Of a stretch of 52,853 bases of DNA, positions 2,095 to 51,930 are shown piece after piece (positions within the stretch are counted from its first letter, which is position 1; the number at the start of each line of letters is the position of its first letter). The position numbers and the translations under genes were made by a program. This DNA comes from a virus. The notes under the pieces were generated by a model. The model searched no databases and was not told the origin of the DNA. It saw nothing but the letters and a program-made list of their open reading frames with translations. Where the stretch lies: positions 1-52,853 of the IMG/VR virus record IMGVR_UViG_3300027816_000138; one strand, written 5' to 3'.

Positions 2095-2498
2095 CATTTA
2101 AAGAATATTTTTTAGAATCAAATGATGTTTCTATAGGTATAAACATTAATGATAAGATACAAGATTTTACCGGTCAAATTTTACGCGGAGAGAAAACAAT
2201 AGAGACAAGAAATAGAAATTCTTTAAAATCATTTATAGGAAAAAAGGTTGGTATTATAAGAACCGGAAAGGGAAAGGCATATCTTGTTGGTTATGCTACT
2301 ATAGGAGATCCAGTAATATATAAAACCGAAGAAGAATTTAGAAAAGATTATAATAAACATCTAGTACAAAAAGATAGTAAGTTTGATATTCCAAAAGGAG
2401 GAATCAAATATGGATATCCGTTATTTGATGTTATAGCATTAAACGAACCTAAGTTAATAACCGATAGGGGAAATTTTGTTTATAGAAAAATAGAATAG
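2091..2498 (+). CDS. ASCH/PUA-like domain protein with capsid-targeting leader
   Basis: 135 residues. Seen: leader MTFKEYFLE-S, which resembles the T4 internal-protein leader MKTYQEFIAE-A. It is followed by a compact domain with FTGQILRGEKTIETRNRN, GKKVGIIRTGKGKAYLVG and YATIGDPV. Family knowledge: 'RGEKTIETR' followed by a beta-rich 'GxKVGIIRTG' segment is typical of ASCH domains, a PUA-like fold that binds RNA or nucleotides. Inferred: a nucleic-acid- or nucleotide-binding protein carried in the head and released at infection. It is translationally coupled (4-nt overlap) to the preceding gene. Confidence 0.65.
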   Translation: MTFKEYFLESNDVSIGININDKIQDFTGQILRGEKTIETRNRNSLKSFIGKKVGIIRTGKGKAYLVGYATIGDPVIYKTEEEFRKDYNKHLVQKDSKFDIPKGGIKYGYPLFDVIALNEPKLITDRGNFVYRKIE

Positions 2499-2503
2499 TT
2501 TTT

Positions 2504-2511
2504 AATAAATA
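2504..2511 (+). promoter_or_regulatory. Late-promoter-like octamer AATAAATA
   Basis: One mismatch to TATAAATA, ending 6 nt before the ATG at 2518. Confidence 0.4.
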
Positions 2512-2517
2512 TAATAT

Positions 2518-2685
2518 ATGAATTTAACTGTGTTAATAGAAAAAGTTTTATCAGAAGCCAAGGTAAAGAGAGACAGATGTCTTAAAAGAGCCGATTCGGT
2601 ATATGGTAAAAAGACATCTGCATATAAAAGTGGTGCGGTTGTAAAATGCCGTCAAGGAAAGATTTGGAAAAAGAAAAAGAAATGA
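2518..2685 (+). CDS. Small basic protein with leader-like N-terminus
   Basis: 55 residues, translated directly from the sequence: starts MNLTVLIEKVLSEAKVKRDR and ends GKIWKKKKK. Seen: a hydrophobic/acidic start with VLSE-A, a possible prohead-protease site, then a Lys/Arg-rich body with two cysteines (RDRCLKRADSVYGKK, AVVKCRQGK). Small proteins with an 'RDRC...VYGKKTSAYKSGAVVKCR' layout occur in marine T4-like phages as I recall; function unknown. The stop overlaps the ATG of the next gene (ATGA at 2682). Inferred: a DNA-associated protein packaged in the capsid. Confidence 0.65.
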   Translation: MNLTVLIEKVLSEAKVKRDRCLKRADSVYGKKTSAYKSGAVVKCRQGKIWKKKKK

Positions 2686-2945
2686 ACTTGGTAAATCTTA
2701 TAGAATCCGTATTGGAAGAAGGTTTTGACTTGGAAAAGAAGCAAGGTCTTCATGGATGGTTTAAAAGAAACAAAGGTAAAGGATGGATAGATTGTAAAAC
2801 AGGAAAACCATGTGGTAGACAAAAGGGTGAAAAAAGAAAAGGATACCCTGCTTGCCGACCAACAAAGTCTATGTGTAATACGAGAAAAAGACACAAAAAG
2901 GGATCAAAAAGAATATCTTGGAAAAGGGGAGATAAAACCAAGTAA
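2682..2945 (+). CDS. Small Lys/Cys-rich protein with leader-like N-terminus
   Basis: 87 residues from the ATG at 2682. A start further upstream (2646) is open but would overlap the preceding gene heavily, and only the 2682 start gives the leader MNLVNLIESVLEE-G, parallel to the previous protein's start. Seen after the leader: LHGWFKRNKGKGWIDCKTGK, PCGRQKGEKRKGYPACRP and a basic tail; four cysteines (DC, PC, AC, MC) could bind a metal. Similar Cys/Lys-rich proteins are found in marine phages and large viruses, without known function. Head packaging is inferred. Confidence 0.65.
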   Translation: MNLVNLIESVLEEGFDLEKKQGLHGWFKRNKGKGWIDCKTGKPCGRQKGEKRKGYPACRPTKSMCNTRKRHKKGSKRISWKRGDKTK

Positions 2946-2948
2946 ATA
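2941..2948 (+). promoter_or_regulatory. Late-promoter-like octamer AGTAAATA
   Basis: Overlaps the stop of the preceding gene and ends 7 nt before the ATG at 2956. Confidence 0.35.
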
Positions 2949-2955
2949 TAATATA

Positions 2956-3210
2956 ATGAAAAACAAAGACCAAATAGTTCTAGAGGGTTTATATAGTAAA
3001 ATTTTAAACGAGGAAAGAAATGTTCCTCCTGCGGATTGGGATAAAGGTTTTGAGTTTCCGATTAAAATTGGTTCTGGAGGAAAAGAAATTCCTTTTAAAA
3101 AGAATGGTAAGTGGTATCTTTATGTTTGGGATTCAAAGAATAATAAACATTTTTATTATTGCTATGATGATGACATTTATCATCCCGATACTGATTTCGA
3201 TCAACTCTAA
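2956..3210 (+). CDS. Putative internal virion protein with capsid-targeting-like leader
   Basis: 84 residues from the ATG at 2956. The frame is open upstream to 2812, but that part overlaps the preceding gene, and 2956 restores the shared leader MKNKDQIVLEGLYSKILNEE. VLE-G and LNE-E fit the L/I-x-E cleavage pattern. The body is a small aromatic- and acid-rich domain (GKWYLYVWDSKNNKHFYYCYD) of unknown function. The leader DNA is also similar to that of the genes at 1495 and 3228, which suggests spread of a 5' module by duplication. Confidence 0.7.
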   Translation: MKNKDQIVLEGLYSKILNEERNVPPADWDKGFEFPIKIGSGGKEIPFKKNGKWYLYVWDSKNNKHFYYCYDDDIYHPDTDFDQL

Positions 3211-3218
3211 TATAAGTA
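3211..3218 (+). promoter_or_regulatory. Late-promoter-like octamer TATAAGTA
   Basis: Single A-to-G change from TATAAATA, 9 nt before the ATG at 3228. The same variant precedes genes 9047 and 36976. Confidence 0.55.
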
Positions 3219-3227
3219 TATAAACAT

Positions 3228-3638
3228 ATGAGAAGCAAAGACCAAATACTATTAGAAAATTTATATTCTAATCAAATCTTAAAAGAAGGAAATGTTTATG
3301 ATTCTGTTCATCGCGCAATAAGTCGCAGAATAGCTAGTAACCATGTCGATTTATTAAGAGATTATGGTATAGAAAAAGTTCTTGATGCTGTTAATCAGGT
3401 AGCTAGTCATGTTGCGGAAGGAGAATCTCTTGAAGATATTGGATCTAGCGATGTAAGTGCTTGGGTTAATTGGGTTGTTAAAGATTTAACACGCGGAGAA
3501 AATACTGCTGAACGTCTTCAAAACATGAGTGATACATGGGATAAAAATGCATCACCGGAAGCCAAAGCGGGTAAAGAAAAGTTATCAAGTATGATGGGTG
3601 AATTCGGAAACCGTTTAGGTCCAGAAGGCGCGCGTTAA
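3228..3638 (+). CDS. Putative internal virion protein with capsid-targeting-like leader
   Basis: 136 residues. Leader MRSKDQILLENLYSNQILKE-G is almost the same as that of gene 1495; LLE-N and LKE-G are candidate prohead-protease sites. The body is predicted mostly helical (AVNQVASHVAEGESLEDIG; DKNASPEAKAGKEKLSSMM), with no recognised domain. Its TAA stop overlaps the stop of the convergent leftward gene in the palindrome TTAA (3635-3638), so there is no room for a terminator. Packaging is inferred from the leader. Confidence 0.7.
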   Translation: MRSKDQILLENLYSNQILKEGNVYDSVHRAISRRIASNHVDLLRDYGIEKVLDAVNQVASHVAEGESLEDIGSSDVSAWVNWVVKDLTRGENTAERLQNMSDTWDKNASPEAKAGKEKLSSMMGEFGNRLGPEGAR

Positions 3639-4105
3639 AACTGTACTAAATCTTTAATCATCATATTATAGGTATCACAATGGAACTTCATATTATTTGA
3701 AGTATCTATAAATCCCTTTGGATAAAACTTTGCATTCTTAAAGAACTTTGTTTTTGGTATCATTCCGCATAACCATGCCTTAGAATTATCATTTAGTATT
3801 CTTACAAACAAATAGACATCGCAATTTTGTTTTGTATTGTATCCACTTATAGAACATTCATAAAAGTCTTTTGGTTTAGAAGAACACTTTTTTGTTTTAA
3901 CATCTATTTTAACATCATTCTTAACAATATCATAATCATGAGTGTTTTCTATTTTGGCTTTAATATAATTCGCCGCTACTATTTCACCTAGAAACCCAAC
4001 GACATTACCTTCTCCTTTTGTTATGGAGTTTCTTAGTTGTCCCATCTCTTTGGATTTTTGTTCTGCTTCTTCAATCCATTCTTTTTTAATTTCTATTTCT
4101 TTCAT
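3635..4105 (-). CDS. PD-(D/E)XK-like nuclease, putative
   Basis: 156 residues from the ATG at 4105, which overlaps the stop of the upstream gene by one base (TAATG). Seen: GFLGEIVAANYIKAK with a Glu, then DYDIVKNDVKIDVKTKK, giving the order E...D...D-V-K typical of restriction-endonuclease-like folds, followed by C-S-S-K and beta-rich segments. Family knowledge: such compact 'GE...yDi...iDVKT' proteins often act as nucleases or Holliday-junction-resolvase relatives. No specific family is recognised. It forms a two-gene leftward operon inside an otherwise rightward cassette. Confidence 0.5.
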   Translation of the reverse strand: MKEIEIKKEWIEEAEQKSKEMGQLRNSITKGEGNVVGFLGEIVAANYIKAKIENTHDYDIVKNDVKIDVKTKKCSSKPKDFYECSISGYNTKQNCDVYLFVRILNDNSKAWLCGMIPKTKFFKNAKFYPKGFIDTSNNMKFHCDTYNMMIKDLVQF

Positions 4106-6867: not shown

Positions 6868-7482
6868 ATGGAATCTGATATTATAAAAATTAAAAATATA
6901 AGATTTTTCGTATCAACTTCATACGAAGAAACTTTACCTTTATTTTTTTCAACGCAAAATATACAAGATGGGTTATATAAAAAAAATGAAAATTATTTTT
7001 TAGTATTAGACAATATTCCATACTCTACAGATAACAGTATAAATTCAAATCAAATAGAAACTTCTGAAATACAAGATAAGAATTATATATTTTCTATTAA
7101 AAAACATTTCTTATATAAGATAGCAAGAAAATTAAAAGATAAAAATATAACACCAGATAATCCTATATTTAAAACCGAAGTGGAAAAACTTTTAATAGAA
7201 TTTTTTAGCGGTAAGCTTAAAGACAAAACAAAAAACCCAGAGCGAGCTGTAAGATTTTTATTAAATACTTCATATAAAAGTTTTTATAATTATTTCATAA
7301 ATAAAATTATAACATTATCATACTCTTTAAAATCAAAAGGATTTGAATTAAAAGAAGATAATATATTTACCGTTCTAAATGATAAAGGCGCTTTAATATT
7401 AACTAATGGTGTTCTTAGATATATTTGTTGTTTTTTATTGAATATTGAAGAAATTCCTGCGATAATAAATTATTCTGAATAA
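6868..7482 (+). CDS. Unknown protein upstream of the carbamoyltransferase
   Basis: 204 residues, not recognised. Seen: very Lys/Asn/Ile-rich; IKNIRFFVSTSYEETLPLFF at the N-terminus, a central helical region (KKHFLYKIARKLKDK) and a C-terminal hydrophobic stretch with a Cys pair (LRYICCFLLNIEEIP). No leader-type start and no signal peptide. The stop overlaps the ATG of the carbamoyltransferase (7482), so the two genes share a transcript from the TATAAATA at 6854 and may act in the same process. Confidence 0.6.
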   Translation: MESDIIKIKNIRFFVSTSYEETLPLFFSTQNIQDGLYKKNENYFLVLDNIPYSTDNSINSNQIETSEIQDKNYIFSIKKHFLYKIARKLKDKNITPDNPIFKTEVEKLLIEFFSGKLKDKTKNPERAVRFLLNTSYKSFYNYFINKIITLSYSLKSKGFELKEDNIFTVLNDKGALILTNGVLRYICCFLLNIEEIPAIINYSE

Positions 7483-8915
7483 TGATAATTTATGGAATAA
7501 ACGAAACAACTCACGATTCAGCTTTATCAGTTATAAAAAATGGAGAAATACTTTTCGCTTCTCATTCAGAGAGATATAGTAAAGTAAAAAACGATTGGTT
7601 TTTAAATCAAGAAATAATTAATAATGCTTTTGAATATGGAGTTCCGGATGTTATAGCATATTATGAAAATCCTTTTTTAAAAAATTTAAGATTGTTTTTT
7701 CGAGGAGGTAAAGGTGGAGATGTTCCATATTTTAAAACTAACTCTTTGTTAAAAAACATTCCGGTTAAATATTTTAAACATCATTATTCTCATGCTTCTG
7801 CTGGATATTTTACAAGTAAATTTAAAAATGCTACAATAGTTGTATTAGATTCTATAGGAGAATTTAATACATCTAGTATATGGTTGGGAAATGATAATAA
7901 AATAAAAAAGATATATAGTCAAAATTATCCAATCAGCTTTGGTCTTTTTTATAGCGCATTTACAAAACTACTTGGACTGGAACCAAATAAAGAAGAATAT
8001 ATAATGATGGGGATGGCTGGATATGGAAACCCAGAAAAATATTATAATAAAGTAAATTCATATTTTCCTAATACAAAAAAACAAAAATATAATTTTCATA
8101 AAGGAATATATGATTGGGATGAACTAGTAGACGAACAAAATAAATTTGATATAGCAGCATCAGTTCAAAAAGTTTATGAAGAAAGAATGATGGAGTTTAT
8201 GTTATATGCTTACAAAAAAACAAAATGTAAGAATTTAGTTTTTATGGGTGGGTGTGCTCTTAATTGTTCTGCTAATACATTACTATGGAAAATATTTGAT
8301 AATGTTTGGATTATGCCAAATCCCGGAGATGCTGGTAGTAGTTTAGGAGCCGCTTGTGCTTTATATAATGACTTTGTTAATTGGGAAACACCATATTTAG
8401 GATATGATATAAAGAAAACATATCCAATAGATAATATACTAAACAATTTAAAAACAGATAAGATAACTGCTGTTGCTTATGGTAGAGCAGAATTTGGACC
8501 AAGAGCTTTAGGGAATAGAAGTATATTAGCAGACCCTAGAGATCCAGATATAAAAGATAAAGTTAATGAAATTAAAAATAGAGAATTGTTTAGACCATTT
8601 GCTCCAATAGTGTTAGAAGAATATAGTAAACAATGGTTTGATATGGAGTTTGATTCTCCGTATATGCAATATGCTGTAAAATGTAAAAAACCAAATTTAA
8701 TACCATCGGTTGTTCATGTTGATGGAACATCAAGAGTTCAAACTATAAACAAAAAACAAAATAAACATTTATATGAACTTCTATTTAAATGGAATGAATA
8801 TAGTGGTGTTCCTGTTCTTTTAAATACAAGTTTAAACATTAAAAACGAACCACTATTAAACGATGAAATTGATATTAATAAATGGATTATTAAATATAAA
8901 AAAAATATAAACTAA
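7482..8915 (+). CDS. NodU/TobZ-family carbamoyltransferase
   Basis: 477 residues, a little shorter than typical members. Seen: N-terminal ASKHA-like domain with KHHYSHASAGYF (99-110), VLDSIGE (121-127), GGCALNCSAN (256-265) and PGDAGSSLGAA (281-291); then a carbamoyl-transfer domain with GRAEFGPRALGNRSILADPR (334-353), FRPFAPIV (370-377) and PVLLNTSLN (444-452). Family knowledge: these enzymes make carbamoyl-adenylate from carbamoyl phosphate and ATP and pass the carbamoyl group to a hydroxyl; one viral relative is reported to carbamoylate 5-hydroxymethylcytosine in DNA. Substrate here is unknown. Neighbouring SGNH-hydrolase genes may belong to the same pathway. Confidence 0.9.
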   Translation: MIIYGINETTHDSALSVIKNGEILFASHSERYSKVKNDWFLNQEIINNAFEYGVPDVIAYYENPFLKNLRLFFRGGKGGDVPYFKTNSLLKNIPVKYFKHHYSHASAGYFTSKFKNATIVVLDSIGEFNTSSIWLGNDNKIKKIYSQNYPISFGLFYSAFTKLLGLEPNKEEYIMMGMAGYGNPEKYYNKVNSYFPNTKKQKYNFHKGIYDWDELVDEQNKFDIAASVQKVYEERMMEFMLYAYKKTKCKNLVFMGGCALNCSANTLLWKIFDNVWIMPNPGDAGSSLGAACALYNDFVNWETPYLGYDIKKTYPIDNILNNLKTDKITAVAYGRAEFGPRALGNRSILADPRDPDIKDKVNEIKNRELFRPFAPIVLEEYSKQWFDMEFDSPYMQYAVKCKKPNLIPSVVHVDGTSRVQTINKKQNKHLYELLFKWNEYSGVPVLLNTSLNIKNEPLLNDEIDINKWIIKYKKNIN

Positions 8916-20615: not shown

Positions 20616-20623
20616 TATTTATT
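20616..20623 (-). promoter_or_regulatory. Late-promoter-like octamer AATAAATA (minus strand)
   Basis: 10 nt before the dUTPase ATG at 20605, at the end of nrdA. Unexpected for a nucleotide-metabolism gene, so it may be chance. Confidence 0.25.
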
Positions 20624-22278
20624 TAAGACTCACAAGATTTGCATGTTAAAATTGAACGCGCCAATTCCTGTGCGGGATTTGCACTTCTTTGATAATACAA
20701 AGATTTAATTCCTTGTTCCCAAGCAAATATCATAAGCTCATTAACTTCTTTTGGTTTGGTATTTGGAGGAATCATAATATTCAATGATTGACCCTGATCA
20801 ATATATTTTTGACGTTGTGCTGCTTGAATAATAATTTCTTTTTGAGAAATTTCACCAAATGTTTTAAATACGTCCTTTTCTTCTTGGGAAAGAAAATCTA
20901 AATGCTGAACACTTCCACCTTTAATAAGGATAGACTTCCAAGTATCATCGTCATCTTTACCCTTTTCCTTTAGAAGTTTTTTAAGATATGGATTCTTATA
21001 TGTAAATTTACCTTTTGCTAAATCTTTTACAAAGTAGTTTGAATTAAGAGGTTCTATACTTGGAGATACTTGACCGAGAATAAAACTCGATGATGTTGTA
21101 GGTGCAACAGCAAGAGTTGTTGTATTTCTTCTTGTGTATTCTGTTCCTTCGTAAATTGGAGCATTCCCATAATTTTTAGCTAAAAATCTAGATGCATAAT
21201 TAGCGCGTTCTCTGATTCCTTTCCATACTGCATTGTTTAACATTTTAGCCTCCATCGATTCAAACCCAATCATCTTGGATTGTAATAAAGAATGCCACCC
21301 AAGAACCCCAATTCCTAATGCTCTTTGATTAATAGCAAAATTTCTAGCGGCTTCCATGAATTTAATCCCTTTGGTTTTTTCAATAAATTCTGACATTACA
21401 GCATCTAGAAAATATACCAAAACTTCTGTTGCATCGGTGGCTTTCCATTCTTCCCAAGTTTCCAAATTTAAAGATGAAAGATCACATACAAAAGATTCAT
21501 CTTCCGAATTAGAAAGCATAATTTCAGAACATAGATTAGAGTTGTTAATTTTTAACCCCTTGTCTTTATAGATTTGAGGTGCTTGATTGTTAGCATTATC
21601 ACTAAAGAAGATGTAAGGGTACCCCGATTCAAAACGTTTCTTGATAACAAGACCCCAAATTCTACGAGCTTCTTTGTCCCCATCAACCATTTTCTTCATC
21701 CATTCATCAGACACACAAACACCAATAGAAAGATTTTGAATTGGATGTCCCTCCCCGCGAATCTTTAAAAATTCTTCAATGTCTGGATGGTCGATTGGAA
21801 GATATGCCGCAAAGGATCCCCTGCGAACACTACCTTGAGAAACGACTTCCATGAGCTTGTCATAAAGCTCCATGAAGTGAACCGAACCTGTCGATTCTCC
21901 ACCGGAAGAGATTGGTGTTCCTCTTCCTCTTAATGCTCCAAAGTAAGCTGATGTTCCTCCACCATGTTTTGTCATCAATGCTACCTCAGAAACTTTTTCC
22001 ATTATGTTTTCCATTGTATCACCAACATAAGACCCAAAGCAAGATATAGGCAATCCTCTTTTACGGCCAAAATTAGCCCAAATGGGAGAACTCAAAGAGT
22101 AAAACCCACGATGCATGTAATCCTCAAACTTGTCAGCAAAGTCTGTACTGTTTAAGTATTTTCCTGCGGCTTCTGCTATATCTCGGATTCGTTGTTCTGG
22201 TGTTTCTCCCTCTAACAAATATCCTCGTTCTAAAAATTTACGCGAATCTTTGTTAAGCCAATATATATATTTTTCCAT
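20623..22278 (-). CDS. nrdA: Ribonucleoside-diphosphate reductase alpha subunit, class I
   Basis: 551 residues, short because the N-terminal ATP-cone domain is absent. Seen: Cys80 (LPISCFG) and Cys265 (ESFVCDL) as the redox pair, N248-L-C250-S-E252 as the active-site triad, Y528-Y529 in SLYYQR for radical transfer, and a C-terminal CKSCES with C546 and C549. Family knowledge: reduces ribonucleotides to deoxyribonucleotides using the radical from NrdB. Lack of the ATP cone would remove dATP activity inhibition, an inference that fits a phage. nrdB and a small ORF lie upstream on the same strand. Confidence 0.96.
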   Translation of the reverse strand: MEKYIYWLNKDSRKFLERGYLLEGETPEQRIRDIAEAAGKYLNSTDFADKFEDYMHRGFYSLSSPIWANFGRKRGLPISCFGSYVGDTMENIMEKVSEVALMTKHGGGTSAYFGALRGRGTPISSGGESTGSVHFMELYDKLMEVVSQGSVRRGSFAAYLPIDHPDIEEFLKIRGEGHPIQNLSIGVCVSDEWMKKMVDGDKEARRIWGLVIKKRFESGYPYIFFSDNANNQAPQIYKDKGLKINNSNLCSEIMLSNSEDESFVCDLSSLNLETWEEWKATDATEVLVYFLDAVMSEFIEKTKGIKFMEAARNFAINQRALGIGVLGWHSLLQSKMIGFESMEAKMLNNAVWKGIRERANYASRFLAKNYGNAPIYEGTEYTRRNTTTLAVAPTTSSSFILGQVSPSIEPLNSNYFVKDLAKGKFTYKNPYLKKLLKEKGKDDDDTWKSILIKGGSVQHLDFLSQEEKDVFKTFGEISQKEIIIQAAQRQKYIDQGQSLNIMIPPNTKPKEVNELMIFAWEQGIKSLYYQRSANPAQELARSILTCKSCES

Positions 22279-43744: not shown

Positions 43745-45340
43745 ATGAATACTGATAGCGGAAAAGGTTATATATATCAAATTGGTACTCAGTTTTATTA
43801 TGTAGAAATATGTTTTTATAATGGAATAAAAAATCCTGTATTCATACCGATGAATATAGTTGAAGAACTTTCTATAAAAGAAAATTTAAATCAATGGTGG
43901 GCTACTGGTTACATAACATTACAAAACGATTTTCAGTTTTTAGAAAAAGGATCAACATATAAAGATAAAACAGGAGAAAAGAAAAGTGCTGAAAATTTAA
44001 TGACTGATAGACCGGATGGTAGAAATAAATTTTGCGTAAGATTACATCCTGTAAATCCAAATAATAAAAGCGAAAATGAATTTATATCTGAAAATTTAAA
44101 AGATTTTGAATTATGTTTTGATTTTGTAGTTTATGATGTTCAAGATCAACCAACTGACAATGCAGAGAAAAAATTTAAAACATATTATTTATGGGATGAA
44201 AGATATCAATTATTCTTAGAAAGAAATTTAGAGTGGTCTACAGCTTTAATAGCTAAAGAAATGAACAACATTCAACAATTTTTAAGCGAGTCTGATAGGC
44301 AGCTTAATCCTAATGTAGCTATAAAAAAATTATTAGAAAAAGCAGCATTATATCCAGATGAAACTAATATAAAAATTGGTTATTTAAAAAACGGTTCTAT
44401 AGACAAACCAGATCAAGATGCTATTTCTATAGATAATGATAATTGGAATAATGGAAGTGATGATAATAAAATATTTTATACTTCATATGCTTCTAATAAT
44501 ATATCTGATGACATTGAGAATGTTCTTCCTTATTGCTGCGACGAAAAAGGATTTCCTGTTATATTAAATATAGGAAGATCATCAGAGGATAAAAAATTTA
44601 AATTAGTTTCATTAAAAAGATATTTTGACGATTCCGCAAAAAACCAAAAAGAAAGATTTGTATTTTATGATACTAAAGATGCATCTTTAGAAAAAGGAAA
44701 ATGGGTTTCTAGAGGACCAGATTTTGATAAAGAACCACAAAATTCTTTAAAAAATTTTACATCTGGAATTGCATCTAAAGTAACATCATACCAATTTTGT
44801 CCAATGTCTAATATAGACGACAGAAATTTAGTAAGCTCTCCTCAACATTATTTTGATTTTTCAACAGGAGAATTTAATATTTTATTTAAAGATAATACTA
44901 TAAACGATTTTGAAAATAAAGTAAAAGAAATGGTTTCTGGTCTTCATAATTTGAATTCAAATAACGGCCAAGTTCTTTTAAAGATTAACAAAATTAAACA
45001 ACAAAACTCCGCTTTAAAAAATGTATTTTCAGCGGTGAAAGAAATACCAAAGAATTTACCGCAAATTCAAATGTTAAAGGATTTTGTGTTTTTAAATCAA
45101 GCGTTAGTATTTCAAACTTATGGTCTTACATTTAGAGCACCCGGTAATTTTTTCACATTAGAAAGCGTACATTCTGATGAATATCAAAATGACTTTTGGG
45201 ATAAGTTTTTAGGTCAGTGGATGATGGTTGAGGTTGAACATAAATTTAGCAAAGAACTATATTCAAATGTTATAGTAGCTAATAAAGTAGATTCTCATAG
45301 TAAAATTTTTGAAATAAAAGACGAAAAATACAATGCTTAA
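43745..45340 (+). CDS. Baseplate hub protein (T4 gp27-like)
   Basis: 531 residues (T4 gp27 has 391). Seen: FYYVEICFYNGIKNPVFIPM, NIVEELSIKENLNQWWATGY, a linker, DIENVLPYCCDEKGFPVILN, LVFQTYGLTFRAPGNFFTLE, FLGQWMMVEVEHKFSKELYS and IVANKVDSHS at the end. Family knowledge: a gp27-like or gpD-like hub has two beta-barrel tube-like domains; the C-terminal 'GltfRaPG.ff.le.......  lG.wmV..veH.f' is typical. Located upstream of the gp5-like spike genes as expected. Confidence 0.7.
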   Translation: MNTDSGKGYIYQIGTQFYYVEICFYNGIKNPVFIPMNIVEELSIKENLNQWWATGYITLQNDFQFLEKGSTYKDKTGEKKSAENLMTDRPDGRNKFCVRLHPVNPNNKSENEFISENLKDFELCFDFVVYDVQDQPTDNAEKKFKTYYLWDERYQLFLERNLEWSTALIAKEMNNIQQFLSESDRQLNPNVAIKKLLEKAALYPDETNIKIGYLKNGSIDKPDQDAISIDNDNWNNGSDDNKIFYTSYASNNISDDIENVLPYCCDEKGFPVILNIGRSSEDKKFKLVSLKRYFDDSAKNQKERFVFYDTKDASLEKGKWVSRGPDFDKEPQNSLKNFTSGIASKVTSYQFCPMSNIDDRNLVSSPQHYFDFSTGEFNILFKDNTINDFENKVKEMVSGLHNLNSNNGQVLLKINKIKQQNSALKNVFSAVKEIPKNLPQIQMLKDFVFLNQALVFQTYGLTFRAPGNFFTLESVHSDEYQNDFWDKFLGQWMMVEVEHKFSKELYSNVIVANKVDSHSKIFEIKDEKYNA

Positions 45341-47995: not shown

Positions 47996-49804
47996 ATGTA
48001 TAAGTTAAATAACATTTATGTTGGAATTGTTGTTAATAACCAAGACTTGGAAAATAGAGGAAGAGTTCAGGTTTTTATACCGCATTTAACAAATACTTTA
48101 TATAAAGGATGGAACGAATCGGGTGAAGATATTAAATTTAAATCTTTTGAATCTTCTGTTTTTACTCCTGATATTATTTCTAGATTAACTGACGTATTAC
48201 CTTGGTCGGAAATGGCTATGCCATTTTTTGGTGGAGGAACTGGTGCTCCGGTAAATCAAAGCACATATACTCCTACTCCCGCACCTACTTTCATGACTTA
48301 TGGTTCTACTGGTGGTATCGCACCATCCACGTCTTTTCCTGTTGGTAAAAATAATTATGATTTAAATGCTATCGTTAAAAACAGTAATGGTGGAAATTCT
48401 GCTTCTTATTATAATGGGCAAAATGTTAATGTAGGGGTAGATGTAAAAAATCTTAATTCTACTTTTTCTCAAAGAATTGCTGGGTTTGCTAATGAATTAA
48501 AATCTGCTGGCTATGATGTCACTATAAGTTCTGGATTCAGAGCGCCTACCATGACAGAAAAAAATGCAATAGGAAGCACCGGAACCGATCAAGCAACTCT
48601 ATATAAACAAAATAATGGAAGGGGTACAGCACCACCATATAAATCAAATCATGGATTTGGAATAGCTGCCGATATTAAAATAATAGGAAATGGAAAATTT
48701 GGTTTCGTTGATATAATGCGAATAGATACTGCTCTGGATAAAGATAATAAAACACCACCAGAACTACAAGTTTTAAAACAAAAATGGGGTCTTCATACTC
48801 CAGTAAATAAGGAACAATGGCATTTTGAACCGGTAGAAACTGGAATAACTGGAAATGGGTTTCAAACTGCTAATAATTTAAATAACAATAACGTACCAGC
48901 ATTTTCCGGTTCTGCAATCGCTCAAGACGGAACAGCAACTAAACAAGAATTTCCAAAAAAAGACGGAATGAATAATAAAGCTGCGGAGGTTAGTAAATCT
49001 GAAACTAGTGTAATTTCTTTAGTTAAAAAAGATTTAAAATTATCAAACGACCAAGCAAATAATGCTGCAATTGCATATAGAACAGCTTATAATGAATCTA
49101 TTAAAAGAAATTTAACGCCCAAACAAGCTAGTGTTGTAGCTGGGGCTATTGTTGGTAATATAAAACAAGAATCTTCGTTTAATCCAAATTTAACTCATGA
49201 TGGAGGTAGGGGTTATGGGTTATTAGGAGAACAAGGTGTTCATTTAGAAAGAATGCGTAATTATGCTAAAAATGTTAAAAAAGAAAATATTAATAATGGA
49301 ATTTCCGTACAAACACAAATAGAAGCATTATTTAATGATCCAGATTTTCTAAACGGAAGACCTTCTAGTGGTGGTCCATCTTGGAAAGGATTATCAACTA
49401 TAGCTAATGCTAATAGCGTAGAAGAAGCGGCTCAATTATTTAGCGGGCAGACATTAAATCCTACAACTGGATGGGGATACTTAAGACCCGGAAACCCACA
49501 AATGGAAAATAGAATATCATATGCCAAACAAGCAAATCAAACATTTTCTCAATTAGGAGAAGGAGAATTAGCGTCTATTGAACAATCTCCAAGTCAACAA
49601 CATAATAATATAATGAAACCAACTGATATGTTTCAAAACGCGGGAAATGGTGTAGCTAAAATTGGAGGCGCGGGAACTGCTATGGGTATGTTTAGTATTC
49701 CTCAAGTTGGATCTAAAGCATATGTAATGTTTTTAGATGGAAACCCATTAAAACCAATTGTAGTTGGTTCATATCAAGAACCTTCAAATGTTAGGTCATC
49801 ATAA
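47996..49804 (+). CDS. Baseplate spike hub (T4 gp5-like) with two lytic domains inside the OB fold
   Basis: 602 residues. Seen: the OB-fold start YVGIVVNNQDLENRGRVQVF (8-27) and LPW (68-70), then insertions: an M15-type peptidase region with SGFRAP (179-184), SNH219GFGIAAD226 and EQWH276FEP (273-279), and a tail-lysozyme-like region with QASVVAGAIVGNIKQESSFN (377-396, candidate Glu392). The OB fold resumes with GGAGTAMGMFSIPQVGSKAY (557-576), FLDGN and PIVVGSYQEP (587-596). Family knowledge: T4 gp5 has its lysozyme after the OB fold. Here both hydrolases sit between its strands, and no beta-helix follows. Confidence 0.8.
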   Translation: MYKLNNIYVGIVVNNQDLENRGRVQVFIPHLTNTLYKGWNESGEDIKFKSFESSVFTPDIISRLTDVLPWSEMAMPFFGGGTGAPVNQSTYTPTPAPTFMTYGSTGGIAPSTSFPVGKNNYDLNAIVKNSNGGNSASYYNGQNVNVGVDVKNLNSTFSQRIAGFANELKSAGYDVTISSGFRAPTMTEKNAIGSTGTDQATLYKQNNGRGTAPPYKSNHGFGIAADIKIIGNGKFGFVDIMRIDTALDKDNKTPPELQVLKQKWGLHTPVNKEQWHFEPVETGITGNGFQTANNLNNNNVPAFSGSAIAQDGTATKQEFPKKDGMNNKAAEVSKSETSVISLVKKDLKLSNDQANNAAIAYRTAYNESIKRNLTPKQASVVAGAIVGNIKQESSFNPNLTHDGGRGYGLLGEQGVHLERMRNYAKNVKKENINNGISVQTQIEALFNDPDFLNGRPSSGGPSWKGLSTIANANSVEEAAQLFSGQTLNPTTGWGYLRPGNPQMENRISYAKQANQTFSQLGEGELASIEQSPSQQHNNIMKPTDMFQNAGNGVAKIGGAGTAMGMFSIPQVGSKAYVMFLDGNPLKPIVVGSYQEPSNVRSS

Positions 49805-49836: not shown

Positions 49837-51930
49837 ATGGCATCACAAAAAACAAATAATTCTGAACCTCCTATTGTAAATAACGATAAATCAGTAGAAG
49901 CAAGTCGTTTAGGTAATGAAGCTGGTGCTTTATATTTTCAAACTAAAATAGAAAAAGATCCTAACGGTTCCGCAATACCTGTTGATAGATCTTTTATACA
50001 ACTACAAGATAAGTTTGGAACTTATATTCATATGTCAGAAGGAAAGTTGATAGAACAATCTTCTACTGATATGGGATTTTACTCTGGTAAAGATTTTTAT
50101 CAATTCGTACAAGGTGATGCTCAATATCATTTTCATGGTGATAAACATGAATACATACAAGGAAACAGAACAATACAAATAGGTCGTCAAGGGAAAGAGC
50201 AACGCGAAGCAGCAGAGAAACTAGCAAAAATAGCAGATGAAATTAGTAATGCGGGTGTAAAAGAAATTGAATCAAATGCTGGAAAAGGAGATAGAATAGA
50301 ATGTCCTATTTGCGCTCAAGAAATGGCAGTTGATAGAGCCGCCAGAACATTTGCTACCGCATCAAAATATTTAAGAAAAATTTTTAATTTTTTACCTAAT
50401 TCTCCTCTTGGTGGATTTATAGATAAAGTAGAAAAAATTTTAAAAGCAGTTATCGCATTCTTTTTAGATTTTATGCCGGTGTCTGCATTGAATGGTGGGT
50501 CTTGTGGTTGTAGTGGATGTAAAAATAATTCTATTGCTTCTCCAATTCATGCCATACAAAAAGCCAATGAAAAAGTATCGGAGCAATTTGAACAAAATAA
50601 AAAAGAAATAGAAAAACTTGAAAAATTAGCATCTGATGGAAGTTTAACAGAAACAATACCAAATGATATAAAAGTTCATGTTGGAGGTCCGATGAGAGAA
50701 TGTGAAACTGTTGCTCTTTCAGATCCAAATCCATTAATAACAGAACTTACTGACGGAAATCCAAAATATTGTTTTATACCTTCTTCTAAAGGAACTTGCA
50801 AAGCTGCTATATATCAACCTTCAGTTCAAACCAGTGGAAATGAACAAAAAACCGTTTCACATAGTTATCAATTAAAAGTAGGTTCTGGTGGAATAGACGT
50901 AGCTACTTCTGGAAAACAAAAAATAAGTGGTTCCGTAGTTGAAGTTACAACATCTAAAGGTGAATTACTTTTAAACTCTCCAAATAAAACTATAATAGGT
51001 GGAGCTAATATCGTTTTACAATCAAAAGGTAATCCAAATGGAGATGCTATAATTTTAGATTCCGATAGAGTTTATGTTGGTGGTAAATTAAGCGTTCAGG
51101 GTGATATAGCTTTAAAGGGATCGTTAATGATGGATGGTGGAATCTATGCCCCCCATTTAACAGTACCCGGAGAAAGAATTGATAGTGAAGTATCAAGCTC
51201 TGCTCATAATGTTCATTCCGCTGCAAATTGGAATAACCCAGTAAAACCCGACGCAACCAAGACAGATATTTTTGATAAAATTTATAAAGTAATGCGCGAT
51301 ATAGCGGCGACATTAATGGGTTTAGTTTTAACTCCGGATTATTTAAAAACTAAAATTGAAGAAACATATTCTACCGCTCAAATATCAATGGTTGTGGATA
51401 ATACATTTTTACCAACTGGATTTGCAATGGTATATGATTATTATACATATATGCCTTTATTCGTTTTTGGAACTTGTACTTATGGTGGTGCTGTTACTGG
51501 CTATGTTTTACCGGCTATGATTCCTGTTTACACTTATACTCACAATCACGGATCCCCCGGAGATCCTCATTCTCATGGATATACCACGCCTAAATGCGTT
51601 ACTCATGGAAATGCTGCGGCATCAATAGCAGCAAGGCAACCAGCATCAAGCATTCCAACTCCAGCTCAAACTACTGGAATGGGATCAGAACCCGGACATA
51701 AAAACGCAGGAGACTTAGGACCGTGCGGTGGAGGCGGTGGACCATTCGGAAATGCAGGAAGAGTAAACTCTGCCAAGTTGAGAAGAAATAGAGCATATGG
51801 AATTAACTCTATTGATGCTTTCGGAGGAAAGGATTATATAGATACTACAGAAAATGGAGTGAATGTTTCTTATAATTCAGACGGAACTACAAATCCAATT
51901 CCAGAGTTTAAACTTCCAGACTGTGATTAA
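49837..51930 (+). CDS. Central spike protein with beta-helix and His/Cys-rich tip (gp5C-like)
   Basis: 697 residues. Seen: an N-terminal beta region (FIQLQDKFGTYIHMSEGKLI; QYHFHGDKHEYIQGNRTIQI), Cys pairs CPIC (156-159) and CGCSGC (223-228), a beta-helix-like stretch (~340-440: ISGSVVEVTTSKGELLLNS; VGGKLSVQGDIALKGSLMM), and a distal segment with H569-N-H571, H578-S-H580, C587 and H590. Family knowledge: T4 gp5C, VgrG and P2 gpV are triple beta-helices, with metal-binding HxH at the tip in P2. Here spike and OB/lysin parts are on two genes. A hydrophobic stretch (VEKILKAVIAFFLDFM) is unusual. Confidence 0.75.
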   Translation: MASQKTNNSEPPIVNNDKSVEASRLGNEAGALYFQTKIEKDPNGSAIPVDRSFIQLQDKFGTYIHMSEGKLIEQSSTDMGFYSGKDFYQFVQGDAQYHFHGDKHEYIQGNRTIQIGRQGKEQREAAEKLAKIADEISNAGVKEIESNAGKGDRIECPICAQEMAVDRAARTFATASKYLRKIFNFLPNSPLGGFIDKVEKILKAVIAFFLDFMPVSALNGGSCGCSGCKNNSIASPIHAIQKANEKVSEQFEQNKKEIEKLEKLASDGSLTETIPNDIKVHVGGPMRECETVALSDPNPLITELTDGNPKYCFIPSSKGTCKAAIYQPSVQTSGNEQKTVSHSYQLKVGSGGIDVATSGKQKISGSVVEVTTSKGELLLNSPNKTIIGGANIVLQSKGNPNGDAIILDSDRVYVGGKLSVQGDIALKGSLMMDGGIYAPHLTVPGERIDSEVSSSAHNVHSAANWNNPVKPDATKTDIFDKIYKVMRDIAATLMGLVLTPDYLKTKIEETYSTAQISMVVDNTFLPTGFAMVYDYYTYMPLFVFGTCTYGGAVTGYVLPAMIPVYTYTHNHGSPGDPHSHGYTTPKCVTHGNAAASIAARQPASSIPTPAQTTGMGSEPGHKNAGDLGPCGGGGGPFGNAGRVNSAKLRRNRAYGINSIDAFGGKDYIDTTENGVNVSYNSDGTTNPIPEFKLPDCD

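Follow-up and report, generated by a model that had tools for sequence, protein, structure and literature searches.

The window, by which we mean the whole stretch of DNA analysed here (52,853 nucleotides, from an uncultured T4-like phage), contains sheath, tube and terminase genes and, between syntenic tail genes, an open reading frame (ORF) with an ATG start that encodes 602 amino acids (aa). Two IMG/VR records originating in separate metagenomes have contigs with an identical 602-aa protein, which excludes a one-off assembly error for the window hub. The features referred to below, all on the plus strand, are as follows.

43745..45340 (+): upstream syntenic baseplate-region gene, without a family match
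47996..49804 (+): gp5-type OB base of the spike, carrying enzyme cargo (ORF; Pfam PF04717 split, PF18013, PF02557)
47996..48241 (+): N-terminal OB half, residues 1-82, predicted strands 8-14, 24-27 and 70-73 (34-sequence alignment; AlphaFold2)
48434..48838 (+): putative M15-type (VanY-like) peptidase, slot A, residues ~147-281 (PF02557, E 0.0011; motif compared with shuffles)
48650..48652 (+): H219, first predicted zinc ligand (SNHGFGIAAD; motif)
48671..48673 (+): D226, second predicted zinc ligand (motif)
48812..48823 (+): E273 and H276 (EQWH), predicted catalytic base and third zinc ligand (motif)
48956..48979 (+): KKDGMNNK linker between slot A and slot B (recurrent motif in the clade of the window)
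48995..49585 (+): Phage_lysozyme2 domain, slot B, residues ~334-530 (PF18013; 46% identical to the L018 cargo)
49169..49171 (+): E392 (KQESSFNP), predicted catalytic Glu (motif; invariant with L018)
49667..49783 (+): C-terminal OB half, residues 558-596, predicted strands 574-579 and 587-593 (PF04717 positions 40-73; alignment; AlphaFold2)
49837..51930 (+): separate spike gene, probable beta-helix (ORF; 48-50% identical syntenic homologue in L006, L007 and L019)

Judged by its position and length, the product of the gene at 43745-45340 may be a gp27-like hub. The preliminary description had called the 602-aa protein a spike hub; its identity as an OB spike protein stands, but is refined here to that of the OB base (gp5 type), the beta-helix being encoded separately (49837-51930). 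In relatives such as L067, L073, L081, L082 and L177 the spike is fused directly after the C-terminal OB half. The presumed beta-helix protein of the window contains a CPIC motif, a hydrophobic helix (KAVIAFFLDFMPV) and a CGCSGC motif in succession, and the fused homologues L067, L073, L081 and L082 share an arrangement of the CPLC or CPIC ... CxNxxC type; this part of the spike is possibly a metal-bound, membrane-active insertion. Its C-terminal part carries an HxH-rich stretch, THNHGSPGDPHSHGY, where the fused relatives have HNHNQTPQDHHHD, resembling metal-binding spike tips. Elsewhere the window encodes a Nol-like carbamoyltransferase (7482-8915, plus strand) and a ribonucleotide reductase large subunit (20623-22278, minus strand).

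The divided OB fold

At the level of sequence, the presence of one gp5/VgrG-type OB fold split by an insert is confirmed, at the place given in the preliminary description. Phage_base_V (PF04717) matches the protein in two stretches (whole-protein E 2.4e-10, 41.1 bits against a gathering threshold of 23.8), the C-terminal one aligning residues 559-592 with profile positions 40-73. Across the relatives, the N-terminal half corresponds to profile positions 1-32 and the C-terminal half to ~36-75, so that the two are colinear. The OB domain of the window protein is thus not contiguous: ~475 residues separate its halves, in an arrangement of 3+2 strands. The alignment of 34 sequences reveals invariant residues in the N-terminal half (G10, D17, P29, N40, LPW68-70 and GG79-80). 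Contiguous PF04717 OB domains are found in phiM9, RL2RES, X1 and phiN3, and a profile made by joining the two halves, without the inserts, matches uninterrupted OB proteins of the isolated T4-like phages phiM9, X1 and RL2RES and of one 634-kb phage record. For phiM9, X1 and RL2RES the joined profile gives a single alignment across the cut, with E between 1.4e-6 and 6.7e-6 in a search of 58 sequences.

Structure prediction, performed on the monomer, agrees with the claimed split and places mostly confident strands in both halves. The AlphaFold2 model was built from a fragment-rich alignment of 118 rows (mean pLDDT 64.5) and predicts five OB strands, at residues 8-14, 24-27, 70-73, 574-579 and 587-593. 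Mean pLDDT in blocks of ten residues is 71-93 over residues 1-80 and 63, 94, 96 and 72 over residues 561-600. With 11 full-length rows the mean pLDDT had been as low as 43, presumably owing to the alignment of unrelated cargo with one another. Foldseek comparison of the split model with the PDB yielded nothing significant (best E 0.6), the weak local matches including contractile-spike OB domains, and one match below 1e-3 was obtained in a viral library; neither comparison was informative about the split fold. A PDB profile search with the N-terminal half returned mostly unrelated matches, together with weak ones to contractile spikes (7aef, 8kea).

Cargo of the OB loop

The insert holds two wall-hydrolase domains predicted to act on different classes of bond, and the motifs quoted for them in the preliminary description lie where it had put them (SNHGFGIAAD at residues 217-226, EQWHFEP at 273-279 and KQESSFNP at 390-397). 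The second domain scores above the Pfam cut-off (PF18013 at residues 362-516, E 2.5e-12, 47.6 bits against 28.2). In the AlphaFold2 model its helices have pLDDT values mostly of 70-95, with 88-95 for the first of them and dips near residues 391-410 and 481-500; values in the M15 region range from 36 to 83. The first domain matches VanY/M15 (PF02557, residues 152-237) at E 0.0011, below the cut-off (19.2 bits against 25). The M15 motif, H-x6-D followed by E.WH, is nonetheless complete and in order (H219, D226, E273, H276), and the full pattern S.H..G.A.D...E.WH never occurred in 200,000 shuffled versions of the protein. A relative is present in L177 (E 3e-7). Searched against PDB sequences, the window M15 domain gave chance matches only, and a profile comparison with the better-supported M15B cargo described below was not significant. 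A motif of the [DN]G.NN type, to which the linker belongs, recurs between the two bays in the clade of the window.

Relatives were collected by a terminase-guided scan of viral contigs for syntenic loci, followed by three scans with the OB halves. Hidden Markov models of the halves detected both in 118 distinct hubs, all from uncultured viruses. In 53 of these the distance between the two profiles is 71-124 residues and the insert resembles an arm without enzymatic function; the majority are long proteins in which hub and spike are fused. The other 65 (61 when made non-redundant) have inserts of at least 125 aa. Pfam families in the loop comprise VanY, M15_3, M23, SLT, GH24, Phage_lysozyme2, GDSL, Tlde1, Amidase_5/CHAP and GH75-like domains, with M15_3, M23, SLT, GDSL, Tlde1, CHAP and GH75 falling below the Pfam cut-offs; in L054, L069 and a few others Pfam recognised no enzyme in the loop. 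PDB profiles add support for an M15A group (Hedgehog/M15 fold, with invariant metal ligands), an M15B group (D,D-carboxypeptidases), an SLT group (6ta9) and, weakly, a CHAP-like group. The DPBB-like, SleB-like and some lysozyme-like groups are class labels of our own, and several slot-B families found no support in Pfam or PHROG. For the M15A cargo, carried in slot A by L014, L018, L025, L006 and others, Hedgehog N-terminal domains rank above bacterial M15 peptidases in the PDB. In the 634-kb uncultured phage LR745206 (L253) a separate ORF of 435 aa (~2433-3737), near a contiguous-OB protein, contains a CHAP-like domain related to the slot-A cargo of L138.

The M15-like domain might instead be a non-catalytic zinc fold that serves for binding, as in Hedgehog proteins, with cutting left to the lysozyme. 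The best PDB matches of the relatives' M15A profile, Hedgehog N-terminal domains at E 2e-7, are in line with this, as is the weak M15 match of the window itself; however, the window retains all four motif residues, including the position of the catalytic Glu, and slot A otherwise holds ordinary peptidases or amidases (VanY, M23, Amidase_5). We regard a purely binding role as rather unlikely.

Two-enzyme hubs account for 25 of the 61 non-redundant hubs with inserts of at least 125 aa. In every one of the 25 hubs with two assigned cargo, representing 19 combinations, the peptide or amide cutter comes first and the glycan cutter second; by our own count, Pfam or PDB profiles support both domains in ~11 of these 25. 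As relatives do not count as independent cases, and as we assigned some of the class labels ourselves, we put this order forward as a hypothetical rule of two-cargo hubs. It is possible, at somewhat less than even odds, that the slot has two bays, bay A taking a peptide or amide cutter and bay B a glycan cutter, each swapped on its own through recombination in the conserved OB halves and linkers, and that the slot serves an uncultured T4-like lineage as its host-range module.

Exchange of cargo between close relatives

The nearest relatives of the window are L006, L007 and L019, whose terminases are 87-89% identical to its own and whose adjacent genes are 38-60% identical. Their OB halves are likewise conserved (67-70% identity for the N-terminal half, 50-58% for the C-terminal half), and comparison of the cargo only detected no significant similarity to the window; this restricted comparison was used because whole-hub BLASTP alignments ran through the cargo owing to the strong flanks. 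In L065 and L168 the DNA is 83% identical up to the loop and 92.5% identical over 3.8 kb after it, with no similarity across the cargo. L081 and L082 differ in slot A only, the first cargo. Adjacent tandem hub genes in L032 are 86% alike in their N-terminal part and 80% in their C-terminal part and carry unrelated cargo. As controls, the pairs L014/L105 (91.6% identical in DNA) and L067/L068 align through the cargo, and the cargo of L007 and L019 are 83% identical in amino acids. Unrelated cargo between such well-conserved neighbours mark the loop as a slot for recombining cassettes, in which close relatives have swapped their enzymes. Mapped on a terminase tree of 32 genomes, slot A requires at least 11 changes and slot B at least 17; these are raw counts, and many slot-B states occur once, which forces changes.

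Tandem hubs with different cargo occur within single genomes at L032:16940-19238, L071:9542-11898 and L072:16491-18942. L035 and L069, with near-identical terminases, diverge from ~16.8 kb and return to high identity near 20.6 kb; the hub cargo is M15-like in the former and unrecognised in the latter, and the adjacent spike region differs.

Such variety of cargo could in principle arise from misassembly of unrelated metagenomic fragments. Every relative does come from uncultured contigs, and searches of isolated phages with the window hub and its relatives gave no match, apart from the CHAP relative in the 634-kb uncultured phage record. Against this, neither junction interrupts the reading frame, independent metagenome records yielded the identical window hub, the arrangement of L006 is seen again in L100, and one and the same cargo turns up on different OB frames. 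We consider misassembly extremely improbable.

According to the preliminary description, two enzymes cutting different bonds in one hub suggested a fixed adaptation to a single tough or chemically modified wall. The two domains are indeed of different bond class, with Glu and metal-ligand motifs intact, which would suit such a role. However, the nearest relatives, despite their terminase identity of 87-89%, carry a single recognised enzyme and unrelated cargo; two-enzyme hubs are common and spread over many lineages; and hubs with several enzymes have a precedent in Anabaena myophage A-1(L) (PMC10966104). Adaptation to one tough wall therefore seems quite unlikely, and an exchangeable slot fits the matching of different walls better. 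In our opinion, the pattern of swapping is of more interest than the presence of two enzymes, and we found an enzyme slot inside a spike OB fold described in none of the open-access papers searched.

A proposed role at entry and comparison with known systems

We favour, with a probability of about 75%, the interpretation that this OB-fold protein forms the base of a contractile-tail spike and that its beta3-beta4 loop is a slot for enzyme cargo exchanged by recombination. The loop would display the zinc peptidase, directed at peptide stems, followed by the muramidase-type domain, directed at glycan strands, on every chain of the expected trimer. The most probable arrangement has the cargo projecting from the spike base to the side of its axis, where it would open the peptidoglycan at entry. 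Lateral cargo would leave the OB fold free for a direct junction to the beta-helix, because with cargo in the loop the OB C-terminus can join the helix directly, as in the fused relatives. Upon contraction the spike would pierce the outer layer and the cargo would open a way through the peptidoglycan for the tail tube. Recombining within the conserved OB halves and linkers, phage lineages would exchange the cargo, altering the wall chemistry that can be breached while the baseplate interface stays untouched. We infer enzymatic activity, display on a trimer, use at entry and the consequence for host range. A scan of bacterial genomes returned no relative, and hence no clue to the host.

The cargo could alternatively act late, in lysis from within or in spike maturation, with its location on the spike being incidental. 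The same enzyme families are generally known from endolysins, as their Pfam descriptions also indicate; yet the cargo forms part of a baseplate OB protein encoded between syntenic tail genes, and the lysozyme of T4 gp5 works at entry (PMC3004832). Late action appears very improbable.

If the recombining-slot interpretation is correct, it reveals in a contractile-tail spike a natural plug-in site where entire enzymes can be swapped while the spike stays intact, and the enzymes in the slot would be a genome-readable trait linked to host wall chemistry in uncultured T4-like phages. For pelagimyophages, gp5 divergence has been assumed in print to reflect the host wall (PMC7029224); the interpretation would lend substance to that assumption, and the slot would be a source of many paired peptidase-glycosidase lysins to test.

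Among known systems, T4 gp5 shares with the window an OB spike base with lysozyme and beta-helix spike within a T4-like set of tail genes; the corresponding parts in the window are the OB fold, Phage_lysozyme2, the adjacent presumed beta-helix gene and a T4-like tail cluster. The contrast drawn earlier with T4 also holds: gp5, which is cleaved, has a single lysozyme in mid-polypeptide, between the N-terminal OB domain and the beta-helix (PMC3004832), whereas the window has two enzymes, inside the OB fold, and its helix is a separate ORF. The hub protein gp15 of A-1(L) combines lysozyme, endoglucanase and peptidase domains, and the spike gp25 of that phage comprises an N-terminal helix, an OB fold and a beta-strand domain, with no enzyme mentioned (PMC10966104). 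Several wall-degrading domains in one tail-tip protein are thus common to gp15 and the window, but in A-1(L) they reside on the hub barrel protein and not on the spike OB. Sinorhizobium phage phiM9 and Rhizobium phage RL2RES, isolates with terminases among the closest, encode PF04717 OB proteins in frames of 302 and 298 aa. Unlike that of the window, their OB domain is contiguous (profile positions 2-73 within ~84 residues) and the extra domain trails it in T4 style; the C-terminal domain of the phiM9 protein looks CHAP-like by eye. Fused hub-spikes of other uncultured relatives (L185 and L228, for example) have OB halves parted at the same loop, although the insert there is a conserved arm of ~70-125 aa without a recognised enzyme. 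Evolved VgrG proteins of the type VI secretion system (T6SS) are likewise spike OB proteins with effector enzymes, generally appended after the spike; in the window, by contrast, the enzymes are placed in the OB loop.
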